Origin: a virus
DNA length: 20,455 nucleotides
Virus record (IMG/VR): IMGVR_UViG_3300000117_000022
Span: 121-20,575 of that record
Strand: one strand, 5' to 3'
The notes under the pieces are model-generated. The model saw nothing but the letters and a program-made list of their open reading frames with translations. It was not told the DNA's origin and searched no databases. The translations under genes and the position numbers were made by a program. Shown here piece after piece: positions 2,733-19,095 of the stretch. Each line of letters begins with the position of its first letter. Position 1 is the stretch's first letter.

Positions 2733-3128
2733 TTATGTTTTTTTCATCACCGTTTTTGGTGAAATAGAATCTTTCTCAAATTCCTCTCTCCAAACTTTCA
2801 TGTCACCATTTTTAACAAGTTGTATGAGTTGTTTGGATTTATCATAATCATACTCACCTGTTTTGTATTTTATCAATACTCCACACTCAAAGGTTCTGCA
2901 AGTGTATGGTCGTTTATCGTATACTCTGCATATGCCATTTGATGTTAGGTTTGTGCAACCACCCCTATCAAAAGTCACACTATGTGTAAATTCTTGACCT
3001 TCATATAAGGTAATATCCTTTACATCGAATAGTTCGTATTCTTTATCAAAGAGGTGGATTGTCTCATTCGGTTGTGAACAACACAAATTGCACGATAGAC
3101 AAATATTATTTTTCGATGACGAACTCAT
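2733..3128 (-). CDS. YkgJ/CxxCxxCC-family putative Zn/Fe-S-binding protein
   Basis: This 131-aa protein carries the signature of the CxxCxxCC (YkgJ, PF03692-type) family: C10-x2-C13-x2-C16-C17 at the N-terminus, then C58 in GGCTN, C67 in GICRVYDKRPYTC, C77 and C82. All eight cysteines of the expected cluster-binding set are present, and the R-x-YDKRPYTCR segment is the family's most typical stretch. Members are thought to chelate zinc or iron; some are linked to flagellin N-methylase (FliB), but most have no known function. The start overlaps the end of the upstream 72-aa gene by 23 bases. A CxxCxxCC protein is not part of the T4 structural set, so it is probably acquired. The role in the phage is unknown: redox, metal handling and modification are all open. 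Confidence 0.83.
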   Translation of the reverse strand: MSSSSKNNICLSCNLCCSQPNETIHLFDKEYELFDVKDITLYEGQEFTHSVTFDRGGCTNLTSNGICRVYDKRPYTCRTFECGVLIKYKTGEYDYDKSKQLIQLVKNGDMKVWREEFEKDSISPKTVMKKT

Positions 3129-3324
3129 TCAATTGTCTTGCAACTCTAATGACTTCTTCACCAGTGATTTCTCTTAATGGTAAAGGTTTCTTATCATTTG
3201 GGAATGAATCGTTATGTGCGTAGATAGCATCAACTTCCCTCTGATAATTAGAAGTCAATAGTCCTTCTGCTTGTGATAATAGGTCGGCTCTAATTTCGAA
3301 CCCCGATTTATTTGAATTACTCAT
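3106..3324 (-). CDS. small conserved-looking phage protein, 72 aa
   Basis: The start is set at ATG 3324-3322 because an AGGAG ribosome binding site lies 6-7 bases upstream (CACAGGAGAAAAAT). The open frame continues 51 codons further upstream, but that part crosses the noncoding-RNA region and has no ribosome binding site, so I exclude it. The 72-aa product reads as two helices (FEIRADLLSQAEGLL and EEVIRVARQLNEFV) joined by a proline-rich linker with PLPLRE. It resembles small helical proteins common in marine T4-like phages, and I know of no function. It is the first gene after the gp23 terminator and would need its own promoter; I found no convincing one on the minus strand. Confidence 0.72.
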   Translation of the reverse strand: MSNSNKSGFEIRADLLSQAEGLLTSNYQREVDAIYAHNDSFPNDKKPLPLREITGEEVIRVARQLNEFVIEK

Positions 3325-3376
3325 ATTTTTCTCCTGTGTGTATGTGTAATGTACATCATTGTACCTTGTATTTAGG

Positions 3377-3406
3377 TTGACAATCCCCTCTACTTTTTGG
3401 TATACT
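3377..3406 (+). promoter_or_regulatory. strong sigma70-type promoter on the plus strand
   Basis: A perfect -35 TTGACA at 3377-3382 and a 5-of-6 -10 TATACT at 3401-3406 are separated by 18 bases. This points rightward, opposite to all protein genes in the window. The predicted start is about 3413. No open reading frame of meaningful length follows on the plus strand before the terminator at 3701-3730. Confidence 0.65.
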
Positions 3407-3481
3407 AGTAAAGTAGGAAATCGAGACGGAAGTAAGATGGTTGTGAGAGGTTGTTCCGTATAGAAAAGGTGTTCCACACTG

Positions 3482-3510
3482 TTAAAGTCAATTAAGACGT
3501 GGCATATAAT
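3482..3510 (+). promoter_or_regulatory. possible second, internal plus-strand promoter
   Basis: A perfect -10 TATAAT (3505-3510) sits 17 bases after a weak -35 TTAAAG (3482-3487). If used, it would start a shorter form of the plus-strand RNA near 3517. It may also be chance in AT-rich DNA. Confidence 0.35.
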
Positions 3511-3700
3511 CGTGAGGTGTGGATAGAATCCGAACAGAGAAACACTTGAAATTTTTGACGAATTGGGATTGTGTGGTAAACGAATTTCTTTATGGTCACT
3601 ACCTATTGACCTAGATAAAATTGGGGTAAGGCCTCACTAGAAGGACACGGTGTAAAGAATAGGGTATTCCCTAGACATTGAACGATTGAAGTCACTAAAC

Positions 3701-3730
3701 AAAAAAAAAGGTCTCGTAAGAGACCTTTTT
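3701..3730 (-). terminator. intrinsic terminator after gp23, bidirectional
   Basis: A perfect 6-bp GC-rich stem (GGTCTC 3710-3715, GAGACC 3720-3725) with a GTAA loop is flanked by nine A on the left and five T on the right. Read on the minus strand it gives a stem followed by nine U, directly downstream of the capsid gene stop at 3762. Read on the plus strand it gives a stem followed by five U and ends the candidate noncoding RNA. The A/T flanks extend the stem by several base pairs in either direction. Confidence 0.9.
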
Positions 3731-3761
3731 AGTATTACCCGAAGGTAATGAGACTTTCGTC

Positions 3762-5063
3762 TTACAGAATGTTTGACACTGCAAATTTTCTGTAGTACTG
3801 GTTAGTACCTGCTGATGCAAGTCCGTCTGCTGGTGTAGCACCGACAAATGGATTTGAAACCATACCATATCTAGTTTTGAAACCGATTTTTGGTTGGAAT
3901 GTGTTCTCACCTACTGCACGAACCATTTGTAATGGAACGTATGGGCAATAGAAAAGACCAGCATCATAAGGGTTAGTACCTCTATAACCTACTGTTAAGT
4001 AGTCAACACCTGCATAAGGGTCAACATATACTTTAACTCTTCCGTTTAATAAACCAGCAAAAGTATTACCAGTGTCATCAACGTTTAGGTTAGTTGAAAG
4101 AGCAGGAGCGTAATCTAATACACCCGCCATTGACAATGCACTTGCTACGTCTGAAGAACATAGAATAAAGTTTCCTTTACCTCTTCTTGTTTCTTTAGCA
4201 ATTGTGTTTGATTCTCTTTCGATTTGGAATAATAAACCTTTGAATTTCTCAACAGACCATCTTCCGTTTGCATCAACGTCTAAGTTGAATGTTCCAGCAG
4301 AAGCAGTTGCTGATGCACCTGTTTTTGCTTGTACATTTACTGTTCTAACAACTTCTCTGTTAATCTCTGCAAGAATTTCTGATGAAAGAATATTCGCAAG
4401 TTCTGACTCAGCGTCAAGACCGTGGATTGCTTTGAGGTCTTGTGCAAGTTCTAATGTGTATTCTGCTTTTAATGCTCTTGATTTTGCAGTCACAGTTGCT
4501 TTCTCTATTGAGAATGCCATCTGAGCAAAACCGTTTGATGCTTCAACATCACCTAATGCTTCTGCAGATGCAGTTGACATACCTGAACCAGTATGTGTTG
4601 CATAGTCAGAGTTAAAAGGGTCTGAGTTAGCCGTAGCTTGTAAACCGTCAGTCACTGTTTGGTTTTCTGAAGAATAACGTGATTCAACTTCGTTGATTCC
4701 CATTGCTTCAGTTTTATTTACCACAGATACTGATGGATAGTCGTTATACCTTGCTTTCATTGCAAAGATAAGTCCTGTCGGGCCAGTCATAGGTTGAACG
4801 CCACAAATGTCGTATGCAACGAGATTTGGCATAGCTCTTCTAACTAGGGATATTAAAATCGGGTCCCAGTTTGAAATTGAACTACCAGTAGCATTTAAAG
4901 GTGCTGCTTCCGCCAATTGAGCTCTGTCTTCGTTTAGAGCATTCTCTTGGTTTTCAAGGATAACAGCAGTAACAGCACGTTTGTAGTTGTCTTCGATTTT
5001 AGGTAAATCGGAGTGTTCTAGAATCGGTTGCCACTTTTCTTGTAAGTTTTCTGATAAAAACAT
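3762..5063 (-). CDS. 23: gp23 major capsid protein precursor
   Basis: gp23 forms the hexameric HK97-fold shell of the head. The 433-aa length is shorter than T4 gp23 (521 aa), as usual in marine T4-like phages. The highly conserved core RRAMPNLVAYDICGVQPM followed by GPTGLIFAMKARY (about 74-107) is diagnostic. A prohead-protease site (L-A-E|A) is visible at 50-53, matching the I/L-x-E rule for gp21 and predicting removal of a 52-residue propeptide. The C-terminal part with GTNPYDAGLFYCPYVPLQM and KIGFKTRYGMVSNPF is also typical. The start is preceded by AAAGGAAA. It lies 24 bases after gp22 and is followed by a strong terminator, so gp22-gp23 end one transcription unit. Confidence 0.97.
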   Translation of the reverse strand: MFLSENLQEKWQPILEHSDLPKIEDNYKRAVTAVILENQENALNEDRAQLAEAAPLNATGSSISNWDPILISLVRRAMPNLVAYDICGVQPMTGPTGLIFAMKARYNDYPSVSVVNKTEAMGINEVESRYSSENQTVTDGLQATANSDPFNSDYATHTGSGMSTASAEALGDVEASNGFAQMAFSIEKATVTAKSRALKAEYTLELAQDLKAIHGLDAESELANILSSEILAEINREVVRTVNVQAKTGASATASAGTFNLDVDANGRWSVEKFKGLLFQIERESNTIAKETRRGKGNFILCSSDVASALSMAGVLDYAPALSTNLNVDDTGNTFAGLLNGRVKVYVDPYAGVDYLTVGYRGTNPYDAGLFYCPYVPLQMVRAVGENTFQPKIGFKTRYGMVSNPFVGATPADGLASAGTNQYYRKFAVSNIL

Positions 5064-11760: not shown

Positions 11761-13341
11761 TTACGATTGAAACCACCTATCCCCTTCTTTATCTACAAAT
11801 GATACTTCTTCTGCAGGGGCTGAACCAAAAACACCTGCTGGTAATAGGTCTTCTTCAATCAATTTTTGTTGTTCTGAATACAACAAGTCTTTAACTTGTG
11901 AATCCGTTAAATGATAGAAAAATTCTGTTGTCACAAACCATGCAAATAATACACAGTTCATAACCATATCGTCATGATATCCTTTTGCTGCTTCATATGA
12001 ATTACCTTTATTAACAAATGTTAGTAATTCAGTTATAGTTGCACGGTCAATCAATTCTAGTCTATTTTCTTCTAATAGTTCTTTTAATGTTGAACAGCCA
12101 ATCCTTTTGATTTTCCTGTTCATTGTTACACCGATATCTTCTTGTTTTGTCATCCCTTGCACAAAAACATTAGGATATTCTATATCATAGTGTAATTGGG
12201 TTGCAACTGTACCACCTTCTGCATTGTTCTCTACTATCACCAATGCTTCGTTGTATGGTTTTACATACTTACTTATCATGTCGGGAAGTAGCATAGGTGA
12301 GAGCATATTGTCTCTAAATGTTGCAACTTGTTTAAATGGTTGACTACTCACATCAAAAATACTAAATGTTGAATAATCTATTCCTCTACCCTTAGAAACA
12401 TCAACTGTACATACATATGAATGCCCCTCTTTGGGTCTTTCGTATATATTTATGTTATCTCGATTCCAATCAGGGTCTACACTCCTTAGTCCTAGTAAAA
12501 CATTACTGTTTATAAGGGTATTACCAGTTCCCAAGAATGAATTACCATACTCCTGTTCGAACTGAGTCTCGGATGTATTTGCAATGGTTTGTTTCTTCCA
12601 CTCTTCATCTCTGCCTGGCACATCAAACCAGTTGATAAGGAAGTGTTTATATTCAGATTGTTTCTGAACTGCACTCTCATATATCTTATAGAACATATTA
12701 CCAACACCATTTGCAGTAGATGTGATAATAACCTTTGACTCTTTACCCGATGTGACAACGGGATATGTTGAAGTATAAAATTCTTCTGCATTTTCTACGA
12801 ACGCAAACTCATCAAGATACAAGAGGTTTATAGACAATCCACGAATAGAACTCGAAGATGTTGCAGCTGCAACGACCTTAGAATCATTTGCAAATTCTAT
12901 ATTACCTTTGTTAAGAATTTTGACACCTGGCTGTAAGAAAAACGGTACACTTTCTAACATGGTGACAATACGGGATATCATTTCCCTTGCAATTGCACCT
13001 TTGTTTGCAAGAACTGCTACAGTGACTTCGGGATGAAACAACAGATACCATAAGAGATATGCACAAGAAGTGATTGATTTACCACTCTGACGGGATGCAA
13101 GAACTACGTTGAAACGATTTTCATCATAGTGTTCTATCAGATTTCCTTGATACCCACGAAGTTTAAATTTGACAAGACCTTCATCCAATGATATAATTTG
13201 ACAATAGTTTTCTATAAAATGAACGGGTTCTTTAGAACACTTCAAGTATTCTTTAAACTCATCTTCAGTGTATTGTTGTTCAATACCTGCTCTCTTGATT
13301 AAATTATTACCAAGATATCCTTCATTTGTGGGTTTAACCAT
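11761..13341 (-). CDS. 17: gp17 large terminase (packaging ATPase and nuclease)
   Basis: gp17 docks on the portal, cuts concatemeric DNA and pumps it into the prohead. The 526 aa are shorter than T4 gp17 (610 aa). ATPase motifs: SRQSGKS Walker A at 83-89, LLYLDEFAF Walker B at 173-181 with D177 and E178, and the coupling motif TSTANG at 207-212. Nuclease (RNase H-fold) acidic residues match the T4 triad: D314 in TVDVSKGRG, E371 in VIVENNAEGG, and D458 in GYHDDMVM. The protein looks complete and active. The ATG overlaps the gp16 stop (TAATG). Confidence 0.97.
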   Translation of the reverse strand: MVKPTNEGYLGNNLIKRAGIEQQYTEDEFKEYLKCSKEPVHFIENYCQIISLDEGLVKFKLRGYQGNLIEHYDENRFNVVLASRQSGKSITSCAYLLWYLLFHPEVTVAVLANKGAIAREMISRIVTMLESVPFFLQPGVKILNKGNIEFANDSKVVAAATSSSSIRGLSINLLYLDEFAFVENAEEFYTSTYPVVTSGKESKVIITSTANGVGNMFYKIYESAVQKQSEYKHFLINWFDVPGRDEEWKKQTIANTSETQFEQEYGNSFLGTGNTLINSNVLLGLRSVDPDWNRDNINIYERPKEGHSYVCTVDVSKGRGIDYSTFSIFDVSSQPFKQVATFRDNMLSPMLLPDMISKYVKPYNEALVIVENNAEGGTVATQLHYDIEYPNVFVQGMTKQEDIGVTMNRKIKRIGCSTLKELLEENRLELIDRATITELLTFVNKGNSYEAAKGYHDDMVMNCVLFAWFVTTEFFYHLTDSQVKDLLYSEQQKLIEEDLLPAGVFGSAPAEEVSFVDKEGDRWFQS

Positions 13342-16795: not shown

Positions 16796-17497
16796 TCAAC
16801 TCATTATGGGGTTTCCATTTTGGTCTAAATCAAAGACAAATTCATTTGGATTATAGTTATTAATATCACCAAAGTTTGCATTGTCTTCAGTATAGTTCAT
16901 ATTTATGTTAAATGATATTGAGTATCTTTCTTTATCAGTTTGATTTGGTTCAACCATATGTACTGCACCGCTTGGAAATAGAACAAGTTCTCCACTAGTA
17001 GGTGTGAACCTCCAGTTATTATTAGTTCTTTGACTTGGAGGAAATTCAGAAAGAACCTTTTCACTACCATCAATCATAACTAAGTCCCCTTCATCACCAT
17101 CTGCCTTTATATAAAAAACACCACTATACCAACAACCAGCATGACTATGTGGCATATTCCATGCACCTTTATCATTAATATTTGCCCAAGAGTTTCCTAT
17201 AGACACTTTAGCAGTATTTGGGTTCAATCCATTAAAGGGTAGTACTTCATCATTAAAGGTGTGTACAATTTCATTCATTAGTTTTTGAAATATAGGAGAT
17301 GATTCACACCCATCATTTGATTGCCATCCCGTATATTGATTTGATATCTGTCTACCTTTTGGGTCGTTTCTTCTCATACTATCGATTTCTGTTTGTAGTA
17401 ATACTAAATAATCTTTTGAGAACCCTCTAGTCTCACCAGCATTTAACATATTTCTATGAAAAATATATGTTGGAAACATTAATCTAACTGCCATCAT
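16796..17497 (-). CDS. 2OG-Fe(II) oxygenase, TIGR02466/2OG-FeII_Oxy_5 type
   Basis: This 233-aa protein begins with the family's LMFPTYIFHRN pattern and has the full active site: H117 and H119 in NMPHSHAGCWYSGVFYIK, distal H180 in LFPSGAVHMVEPN, and R191 in ERYSISFNI. The spacing and FTPTSGELVLFPS strand match the TIGR02466 family, which is frequent in marine T4-like phages. The first facial ligand pair is HxH rather than HxD, as is common in this family. Substrate unknown. The start ATGATG is preceded by AGGAGATA and overlaps the end of the upstream DUF6065-like gene by 14 bases, so the two are probably coupled. Confidence 0.88.
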   Translation of the reverse strand: MMAVRLMFPTYIFHRNMLNAGETRGFSKDYLVLLQTEIDSMRRNDPKGRQISNQYTGWQSNDGCESSPIFQKLMNEIVHTFNDEVLPFNGLNPNTAKVSIGNSWANINDKGAWNMPHSHAGCWYSGVFYIKADGDEGDLVMIDGSEKVLSEFPPSQRTNNNWRFTPTSGELVLFPSGAVHMVEPNQTDKERYSISFNINMNYTEDNANFGDINNYNPNEFVFDLDQNGNPIMS

Positions 17498-18398
17498 TAT
17501 CTCCTATAGGTAATTCTAATTGTATTTCGGGTGAGTCTTCACTGACATGATAAGGACACTCGGGTGGTGGTGACTCTTCATTAAAGTATTTTTGTTTAGG
17601 ATTCCAATATTTCATCTTCTTATAAGGCCCTACAGTTTTTGCAGAGACACTTCTATTATCTTCAACACCCAAAATTCTGAATGCTTCTGGCATTCCTATC
17701 GTTTCCCTTTCTGTTGTTAGACGAGATGAACTTAACATTTCAGATTTTGTAGTCTTAAGTGCATATGTCCCAACCCATTCTTCTCTCTTAAAGGGGATAA
17801 TTTGACAAAGAGGTGTTCCTTTAAGAATGGTGAAATTATGGTCAACCTTTGGGTAAAAAATGATTTGTGCATTATCTACACCATTGTTGAATTTATCGGT
17901 ATCAATTACACCTTGCCATGTAGAAAAGTATTTATTCTGATGCAGAAATGGGTCTAAGTAAAATGTAGAATATCCTTCGGGTGTTGTAATGCACCATGGG
18001 TTTCTCATTTTAAATGCATCTTTAACTGGAGGGTTTTCTGACTTGTCCATATATGAAAATCCATCCATAAGTTGAGTATGTGGATGAGAAGAAGAGGATG
18101 TACCCTTTAACCAGTTTCCTGCATCTAAGTCTCTAACAGATGCCCAACCAATACCTTCTTCATCTTTATGAGAAATTCCTTGTATGACTTCCATATCTCT
18201 ATTTGCACATAAGTACCAACCCATCTTTAACCAATCATCCATTGCAGGACATGCTCTTATAGTTTGTTGTTTGACCCCATTTACAACTTCTGCAACCTTT
18301 GATTTTTTCCACCAATCGGGAACTAAATCTTTTGCAAGTATGGGTTTAAAATCTTTTATTGTTGTAGGATTATATGTATGAAAGTCTATCGTTGGCAT
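17484..18398 (-). CDS. DUF6065-like protein of unknown function
   Basis: The 304-aa protein has the layout I associate with DUF6065-type proteins: LVPDWWKK near 25-32, a CPAMDDWLKMGWYL segment (50-63), a KMRNPWCITTPEGYSTFYL strand run, WQGVIDTDKF, and IIFYPKVDHN followed by ILKGTPLCQIIPFKREEW. These look like beta-strands of a cupin- or dUTPase-like barrel, but I see no catalytic set. Function is unknown. It begins with a very strong ribosome binding site (AAGGAGGAG) and overlaps the upstream oxygenase gene by 29 bases. Being sandwiched between two 2OG oxygenases, it may act in the same modification pathway; that is inference. Confidence 0.72.
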   Translation of the reverse strand: MPTIDFHTYNPTTIKDFKPILAKDLVPDWWKKSKVAEVVNGVKQQTIRACPAMDDWLKMGWYLCANRDMEVIQGISHKDEEGIGWASVRDLDAGNWLKGTSSSSHPHTQLMDGFSYMDKSENPPVKDAFKMRNPWCITTPEGYSTFYLDPFLHQNKYFSTWQGVIDTDKFNNGVDNAQIIFYPKVDHNFTILKGTPLCQIIPFKREEWVGTYALKTTKSEMLSSSRLTTERETIGMPEAFRILGVEDNRSVSAKTVGPYKKMKYWNPKQKYFNEESPPPECPYHVSEDSPEIQLELPIGDNDGS

Positions 18399-19095
18399 CG
18401 TAAAACTCCTCCTTATCTACAAGTCTGACTTCATCACCACGAACAACAACAGACTTTCTATCTACATATCTTGCCTTTGCTGTTGGTGCATCTGCACCAT
18501 GTGGTATTCTACCATCAAACATAATTAATCTATTTGGTTTAAACTTAACTGATGCAAACTCTTTGTTGTTGTCTCTTGCATGTATTCCGTGTTCTGTTGT
18601 TGAATAAAATCTTAAATCACCACCCCAAGCATCTTCCCAAAATTTATTTGTATAGTATAAGAATGACATGTTCCACTCATCTTCGGGTGAACAGTCTTGG
18701 TGACAAGTTCCATGTAATCCTTGTGTTTGTGAATTTAATCCCATGTATTGAAATCTCTCCCACTTGAATCCAAATTCTGTTTGCAATTTTCTATTAAGGT
18801 ATCTAGGAAAGTACGTGTATTTATCCTCTATGTCGTCTACAGACATAGGTCTTTTATCTTTGTCATAACCACTAAGTATGGCTCCTCCCCAAAATTGATG
18901 ATGAGGTAATCCTGTTGGACTATCTCCTCTTACTTCATTCCCTTTAGACCAAAAATTTGCACGTGATATTTGTGTATCGTAAAAATGATGGAGTGAAGAT
19001 GGCAACCAATTATCTAAAACATAGATATTCTTTAAAGGAAGTGTTTCAACTCTAAAGGGTTTATCTATGAAGATAACTTCGGGGGTTGAGTTCAT
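18370..19095 (-). CDS. 2OG-Fe(II) oxygenase (prolyl-hydroxylase-like)
   Basis: The 241-aa protein contains the 2OG-Fe(II) core: H132-x-D134 in GTCHQDCSPEDEWNMSFLYYTN, WGGDLRFYS (157-165), KPNRLIMFDGRIPHGADAP with distal H199 (187-204), and R213 in DRKSVVVR as the probable 2OG-binding arginine (R209 is the alternative). The set looks intact. The N-terminal YVLDNWLP and HHFYDTQISRANFW stretches are like those of procollagen-hydroxylase-type phage enzymes. The ATG overlaps the upstream gene's stop (TAATG) and has no clear ribosome binding site, implying coupling. Third oxygenase of the window by distinct sequence; substrate unknown. Confidence 0.87.
   Translation of the reverse strand: MNSTPEVIFIDKPFRVETLPLKNIYVLDNWLPSSLHHFYDTQISRANFWSKGNEVRGDSPTGLPHHQFWGGAILSGYDKDKRPMSVDDIEDKYTYFPRYLNRKLQTEFGFKWERFQYMGLNSQTQGLHGTCHQDCSPEDEWNMSFLYYTNKFWEDAWGGDLRFYSTTEHGIHARDNNKEFASVKFKPNRLIMFDGRIPHGADAPTAKARYVDRKSVVVRGDEVRLVDKEEFYDANDRLSYI

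Follow-up and report, generated by a model that had tools for sequence, protein, structure and literature searches.

A structured noncoding RNA gene of marine T4-like phages, inferred from comparison of its homologues and absent from Rfam

What occupies the 437-base gap (3325-3761) that separates the capsid gene gp23 (3762-5063, minus strand) from a 72-aa gene (3106-3324, minus strand) in the window, i.e., the whole 20,455-nucleotide stretch of an IMG/VR virus record that was analysed here? The first-pass annotation, made from the letters alone, had proposed a plus-strand structured noncoding RNA hidden in a region where every protein gene runs on the minus strand, and the ORF layout agrees with it on both the gene orientation and the size of the gap, within which no plus-strand ORF of at least 50 aa is found, as had also been claimed. 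The sigma70 promoter was described exactly as it stands (with the TG present), and ranks second among the promoter-like sites of the window, while the predicted terminator hairpin is there as an 11-bp stem with T-tracts flanking it on both sides, so that one terminator can serve both gp23 and the RNA; it is retained in relatives with differing stem sequences. The RNA start given in Table 1 is inferred (7 nt past the -10 box) and its end is taken as the terminator T-tract, which makes for a length of about 320 nt from promoter to terminator. Less fortunate was the statement on base composition, as the G+C content, instead of being 42-45%, is 39.4% for 3413-3704 versus 35.7% for the whole window, and is thus less striking than claimed. 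The sole sizeable minus-strand ORF entering the gap from the side of the 72-aa gene (3106-3477) merely prolongs that gene upstream to a GTG start, and, since locus L003 keeps the RNA without having the 72-aa gene, this extension is not a conserved ORF. The late-promoter-like CTAAATA is comparable to the NATAAATA of cyanophage S-PM2 (PMC2984593), and relatives that have no RNA (e.g., L001) show it too, in the stretch from the gp23 terminator to the neighbouring gene. As a separate observation, a perfect TTGACA-17-TATAAT with TG (12/12) is present at 13169-13197 (plus strand) inside the opposite-strand gp17 terminase gene with no terminator-like site close downstream, which might indicate an antisense transcript or be a matter of chance.

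Exact word scans of IMG/VR returned about 50 contigs with the RNA straight away, and shorter words together with a profile search brought this to at least about 150 loci in at least five genomic contexts of marine T4-like phages (pattern scans pick members keeping the scanned words, and the invariance of those words looks inflated as a result). The RNA family is widespread in marine T4-like phages, and it is absent from Rfam: the window RNA, searched up to E = 10, matched no GOLLD, ROOL, tmRNA, RNase P RNA, 6S, group I intron or any other family, and the divergent members (with tmRNA checked to E = 1) likewise gave no family, GOLLD and ROOL included, which upholds the earlier failure to match tmRNA, RNase P RNA or 6S. 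Weak Rfam sRNA matches of the window RNA rest mostly on the terminator hairpin. No report of this RNA was found in open-access papers, and its novelty has been checked against these and Rfam only.

Identity across nine close relatives is 92-100% for the RNA, versus 84-87% for gp23 DNA and 75-83% for gp21 DNA, a degree of conservation going far beyond what a minus-strand promoter would explain. Where the sequence downstream of gp23 was read in its closest relatives, the element is kept in L003, and the others show either a different insert or just a short junction, which has a terminator and in most cases the late-promoter-like CTAAATA; L118 and L009 have an additional insert between the terminator and gp23, suggesting that insertions may be frequent in the gap downstream of gp23. 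Phage records searched by BLASTN with the window gap and with three divergent members yielded no RNA homologue, and the covariance model R1 found no carrier among twelve phage records, of which one was a single-cell virus and the other eleven were isolates or assembled phages (T4, Melnitz, HTVC008M and Mosig among them), with an E = 0.34 match in Melnitz falling in coding sequence and being taken as noise. Pattern scans of bacterial genomes did not find the RNA either (the lone match scored 12.6 bits over just 30 nt). As far as these records can tell, the RNA is accessory, because close isolates (Melnitz, HTVC008M, Mosig) do without it; the window phage itself has not been isolated.

The support for a fold comes from the homologues. 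In an alignment of 30 distinct sequences (A1; nine helices, 45 pairs), 95.7% of the paired cells can pair, versus 73.4% in shuffled alignments and 36-46% when partners are slid by 1-3 columns, and cells changed on both sides number 310, a count that drops to 106 on shuffling and to no more than 55 on sliding, so that the covariation asked for by the first-pass annotation is abundantly met by compensatory base changes. Two of five covariation measures are, admittedly, weak against shuffles (the number of pairs with a double change was equalled in 8 of 500 shuffles, and the further pair types were not in excess), and the sequences on which the pairing was counted are also those from which the structure was derived. 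RNAalifold, unaided, recovers P3, P3b and P5-P8 (compensatory pairs, 20 of 39), and three members outside the alignment (L279, L312, L257) form readable helices with different letters, P1 being among the helices present in such outside lineages (strands picked by eye in both cases). The P2 stem reads ACGGAA, ACGCAC, AGGACU or AAAGCU depending on the lineage, and P4, about 98% of whose cells are paired, crosses both P1 and P3, forming a double pseudoknot. The alignment contains 117 G-U pairs but only 10 A-C pairs, which fixes the plus strand as the functional one. Single-sequence folding was uninformative (an unremarkable energy, z = -1.17) and pointed to the wrong long-range stem, namely the GTGAGG/CCTCAC pairing suggested earlier, which is present in the single-sequence fold and is rejected by comparison because CCTC pairs locally with GAGG (P7) and GTGAG sits in P4/P3. 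With homologues, compensatory changes and the G-U excess all behind the original proposal of a structured plus-strand noncoding RNA, the existence of the RNA gene, its strand and its fold can, on comparative sequence evidence, hardly be doubted.

Table 1. Features of the RNA locus in the window (helix strands refer to the comparative fold; pairing percentages are shares of alignment cells)
Feature	Position	Strand	Remarks
Late-promoter-like CTAAATA for minus-strand genes	3369-3375	-	Adjoins the -35 box of the RNA; seen in sequence, function inferred
Sigma70 promoter, TTGACA-18-TATACT, TG before -10	3377-3406	+	11/12; position kept in homologues whatever the flanking gene
Structured noncoding RNA gene	3413-3733	+	Homologues at at least about 150 loci; covariation
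P1, 5' strand	3416-3421	+	Pairs with 3584-3589; 80.6% paired; double changes in 4/6 pairs
P2 hairpin, ACGGAA/UUCCGU	3427-3459	+	Conserved loop of about 21 nt
P3	3474-3522 (3474-3480/3516-3522)	+	98.0% paired; double changes in 6/7 pairs; encloses P3b and the P4 5' strand
P3b hairpin	3487-3503	+	Loop AUUAAGACG; alignment and RNAalifold
P4, 5' strand	3507-3513	+	Partner 3682-3688; 98.1% paired; double changes in 5/7 pairs
P5 stem	3542-3574 (3542-3546/3570-3574)	+	Around conserved GAAA/GGGA; 98.7% paired; double changes in 5/5 pairs
P1, 3' strand	3584-3589	+	Directly 3' of the invariant AAACGA
P6 hairpin, GGUCA/UGACC	3594-3611	+	100% paired
P7 hairpin, GGGG-UAAGG-CCUC type	3622-3636	+	Missing in the L095, L268 and L216 groups
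P8 hairpin, UAGGG/CCCUA	3661-3672	+	Alignment and RNAalifold
P4, 3' strand	3682-3688	+	Partner of 3507-3513
Bidirectional intrinsic terminator	3705-3730		Common to the RNA (+) and gp23 (-)

Some members depart from this layout at the 3' side: L086, L091, L112, L124, L130 and L163 have, after P4 and ahead of the terminator, an optional additional domain (GAAGGAAAGGATAATAAGGCATGATTCGG...) some 60 nt long, and in L179 a hairpin-bounded stretch immediately 3' of the RNA (4930-5040, plus strand; TTGGAGGGAATAAGG...GCGACCTCCAA) may be a second noncoding RNA.

The placement between the capsid gene and uvsY, as originally described, holds for the window copy and fails as a general site, this being one of several places in which the RNA occurs. 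It is antiparallel to gp23 in 67 loci, and this arrangement, along with the terminator that the window copy has in common with gp23, could be taken to mean a cis-acting antisense regulator opposing transcription of, or readthrough from, the gp23 operon; in 11 loci, however, the RNA lies downstream of gp23 in the same direction (the group examined being gp23 - tRNA-Asp - RNA - NifU-like gene), and many loci have no gp23 nearby, the RNA being instead beside a DNA polymerase gene along with a small gene of heat-shock type (L258, L243, L250), beside a gene for a SprT-like protease (L211, L123), abutting tRNA-Asp between 2OG oxygenase-type and vWA-type genes (L269, L279) or upstream of tRNA-Glu (L242, L235, L177). 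Names of context genes lacking a Pfam match were read from sequence. CfrI of cyanophage S-PM2 is a noncoding RNA of about 225 nt that lies antisense to psbA and to the gene of a homing endonuclease (PMC2984593), and is similar in coming from a marine T4-like phage; the RNA described here differs in overlapping no gene and in having several contexts, which leaves the cis-antisense criterion unmet, and selection acts on its own fold. Regulation of gp23 in cis was consequently rejected on account of the other genomic contexts, and we consider it very unlikely. The conservation of a complex fold while the contexts change rather argues for an RNA acting in trans. On a different note, the window itself encodes several 2OG-Fe(II) oxygenase-type genes (811-1485, 16796-17497 and 18370-19095, all minus strand), only the first of which was checked against Pfam, the rest being read from sequence.

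Such a variety of locations, a size of about 300 nt, pseudoknots, and many invariant unpaired bases would also be expected of a self-acting ribozyme or the remnant of a self-splicing/mobile RNA element moving between phages, and there are signs of exchange. Two mosaic RNAs from two separate metagenomes (L095:1291-1550 and L114:527-786) are 92-95% like the window type over their first two thirds, whereas their final third resembles L268 at 91% and the window at just 46%, and the RNA of L118 is 100% identical to that of the window over 278 nt with the gp23 on the same contig being just 83.5% identical. Together, these suggest the exchange of the RNA or its pieces, the mosaics looking like the outcome of recombination of such pieces across phage lineages. 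A ribozyme or mobile element remains improbable nonetheless, with no Rfam ribozyme or intron match, a promoter and terminator of its own, no interrupted gene, and no endonuclease or reverse transcriptase recognised alongside in the contexts read.

The RNA is often found beside tRNA genes. Within RNA-bearing loci, 28 of 37 tRNAs are no more than 100 nt away from the RNA and share its strand, versus 1.7% for random positions (30 of 39 after the final scan). The association is limited to about 30 of the at least about 150 loci, in three arrangements with one group dominant, and the whole 63-kb record of the window contains no tRNA gene. A tmRNA-like RNA deserves mentioning here, as the invariant AAACGA opens, in the alignment, a short frame N-[DE]-x-x-Y-G resembling the ANDENYALAA tag, the fold has pseudoknots, and the related phage Melnitz possesses a two-piece tmRNA, an early-type RNA gene similarly placed at an early promoter (PMC9004378). 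The likeness ends with both being early-type RNA genes of related marine phages: no Rfam tmRNA model matches (the window copy to E = 10, divergent copies to E = 1), ARAGORN finds none, there is no tRNA-like domain with a CCA end and no conserved tag, and the frame, only about 7 to 25 codons long, has ends (LLT, PPR, KSR, GR, etc.) that are not degron-like. In three sequences, UAA even immediately precedes the AAC codon. The AAACGA frame was, for its shortness, its ends and these stops, discarded as a tmRNA candidate, and a tmRNA-like identity is scarcely credible.

Of the 117 loci with a readable 5' side, 86 have a sigma70-like site matching at least 10 of 12 positions at a distance of 5-16 nt upstream of the conserved 5' end, versus 0.6% for random positions (the loci are not independent), and the site recurs in several lineages with unrelated flanks. 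Loci without it have the RNA 7-8 nt after tRNA-Asp or closely after a coding gene, and in phages with the tRNA arrangement the RNA appears to be transcribed together with the tRNA, no transcript data being available. Early transcription in T4-like phages relies on host sigma70 promoters and late transcription on the NATAAATA-type motif (PMC2984593, PMC3037559), from which early expression of the RNA is inferred; early timing combined with a link to translation must, with no transcript data, be regarded as a tentative inference that we hold at well below even confidence. A strong early-type promoter would equally suit a 6S-like mimic made early to shift transcription by the host RNA polymerase, but the lack of a Rfam 6S match and a pseudoknotted fold, as opposed to a long bulged rod, speak against it, and such a regulator seems quite improbable.

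The closest known kind is that of the large phage RNAs encoded near tRNAs, represented by GOLLD and ROOL, even though neither model matched. GOLLD is a phage or prophage RNA found near tRNA islands, in some cases marine, and ROOL (Rumen-Originating, Ornate, Large; 659 nt in the study cited) is a phage RNA with multiple pseudoknots that is often near tRNAs, the function of both being unknown (PMC12286853). The RNA described here resembles the former in having a tRNA within 100 nt at 30 of the at least about 150 loci (not at the window copy) and the latter in its pseudoknotted complex fold (P4 crossing P1 and P3, 98% of cells paired); it differs from GOLLD, often longer than 800 nt with a conserved 3' domain, in its approximately 320 nt and lack of a Rfam match up to E = 10, and from ROOL in the same size, an unmatched Rfam ROOL model and its occurrence in marine T4-like phages. 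ROOL is also known for self-assembling into a nanocage. T4 itself makes the stable RNAs C and D, non-tRNA species of unknown function from inside its tRNA cluster, which are alike in being non-tRNA phage RNAs (a likeness with no alignment behind it), but are much shorter, and T4 is without a match to model R1.

With the above in mind, we somewhat favour an independent gene whose product is a structured RNA acting in trans that binds the translation/tRNA machinery or self-assembles. The plus strand would be transcribed from the strong host-type sigma70 promoter, probably early in infection, the transcript would end at the terminator common to the capsid gene, and the nine conserved helices would form, with the double pseudoknot tying in the 5' and 3' parts; the resulting stable RNA may then bind the host translation/tRNA machinery or assemble with its own copies in the manner of GOLLD and ROOL, a function that is inferred and not shown. 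That the role lies in translation, tRNA handling or RNA self-assembly is merely our best guess, with the odds leaning clearly against it, and it leans on the tRNA neighbours in three arrangements, the early-type promoters elsewhere and the GOLLD/ROOL precedent.

As for the hosts, the window gp23 is, among isolates, closest to that of Methylophilales phage Melnitz and of Pelagibacter phages (64-67%), some RNA-carrying contigs contain glutamine riboswitches (L216:5073-5194, L255:1875-2017), and some carriers have curli-like genes (read from sequence), both of the latter having been reported from this phage group (PMC7029224, PMC9004378). Since all of these match that group, the hosts are probably, by inference, SAR11 or other streamlined marine bacteria.

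Phage RNAs that are large and conserved but without a known function are few (GOLLD, ROOL), and a compact family from marine T4-like phages is now added to them, the fold support of which is good enough for testing and the size of which, about 300 nt, suits structure determination and biochemistry, with the tRNA neighbours offering a concrete functional hypothesis. It also serves as a reminder that annotations of uncultured phages can miss structured RNA genes. The boldest possibility, rather doubtful at present, is that of a new compact, double-pseudoknotted RNA class that uncultured marine T4-like phages express first in infection and exchange as a module, and that usurps some of the host's translation or is catalytic; if true, an RNA would be doing what, in T4-like phages, has until now been ascribed mostly to proteins.
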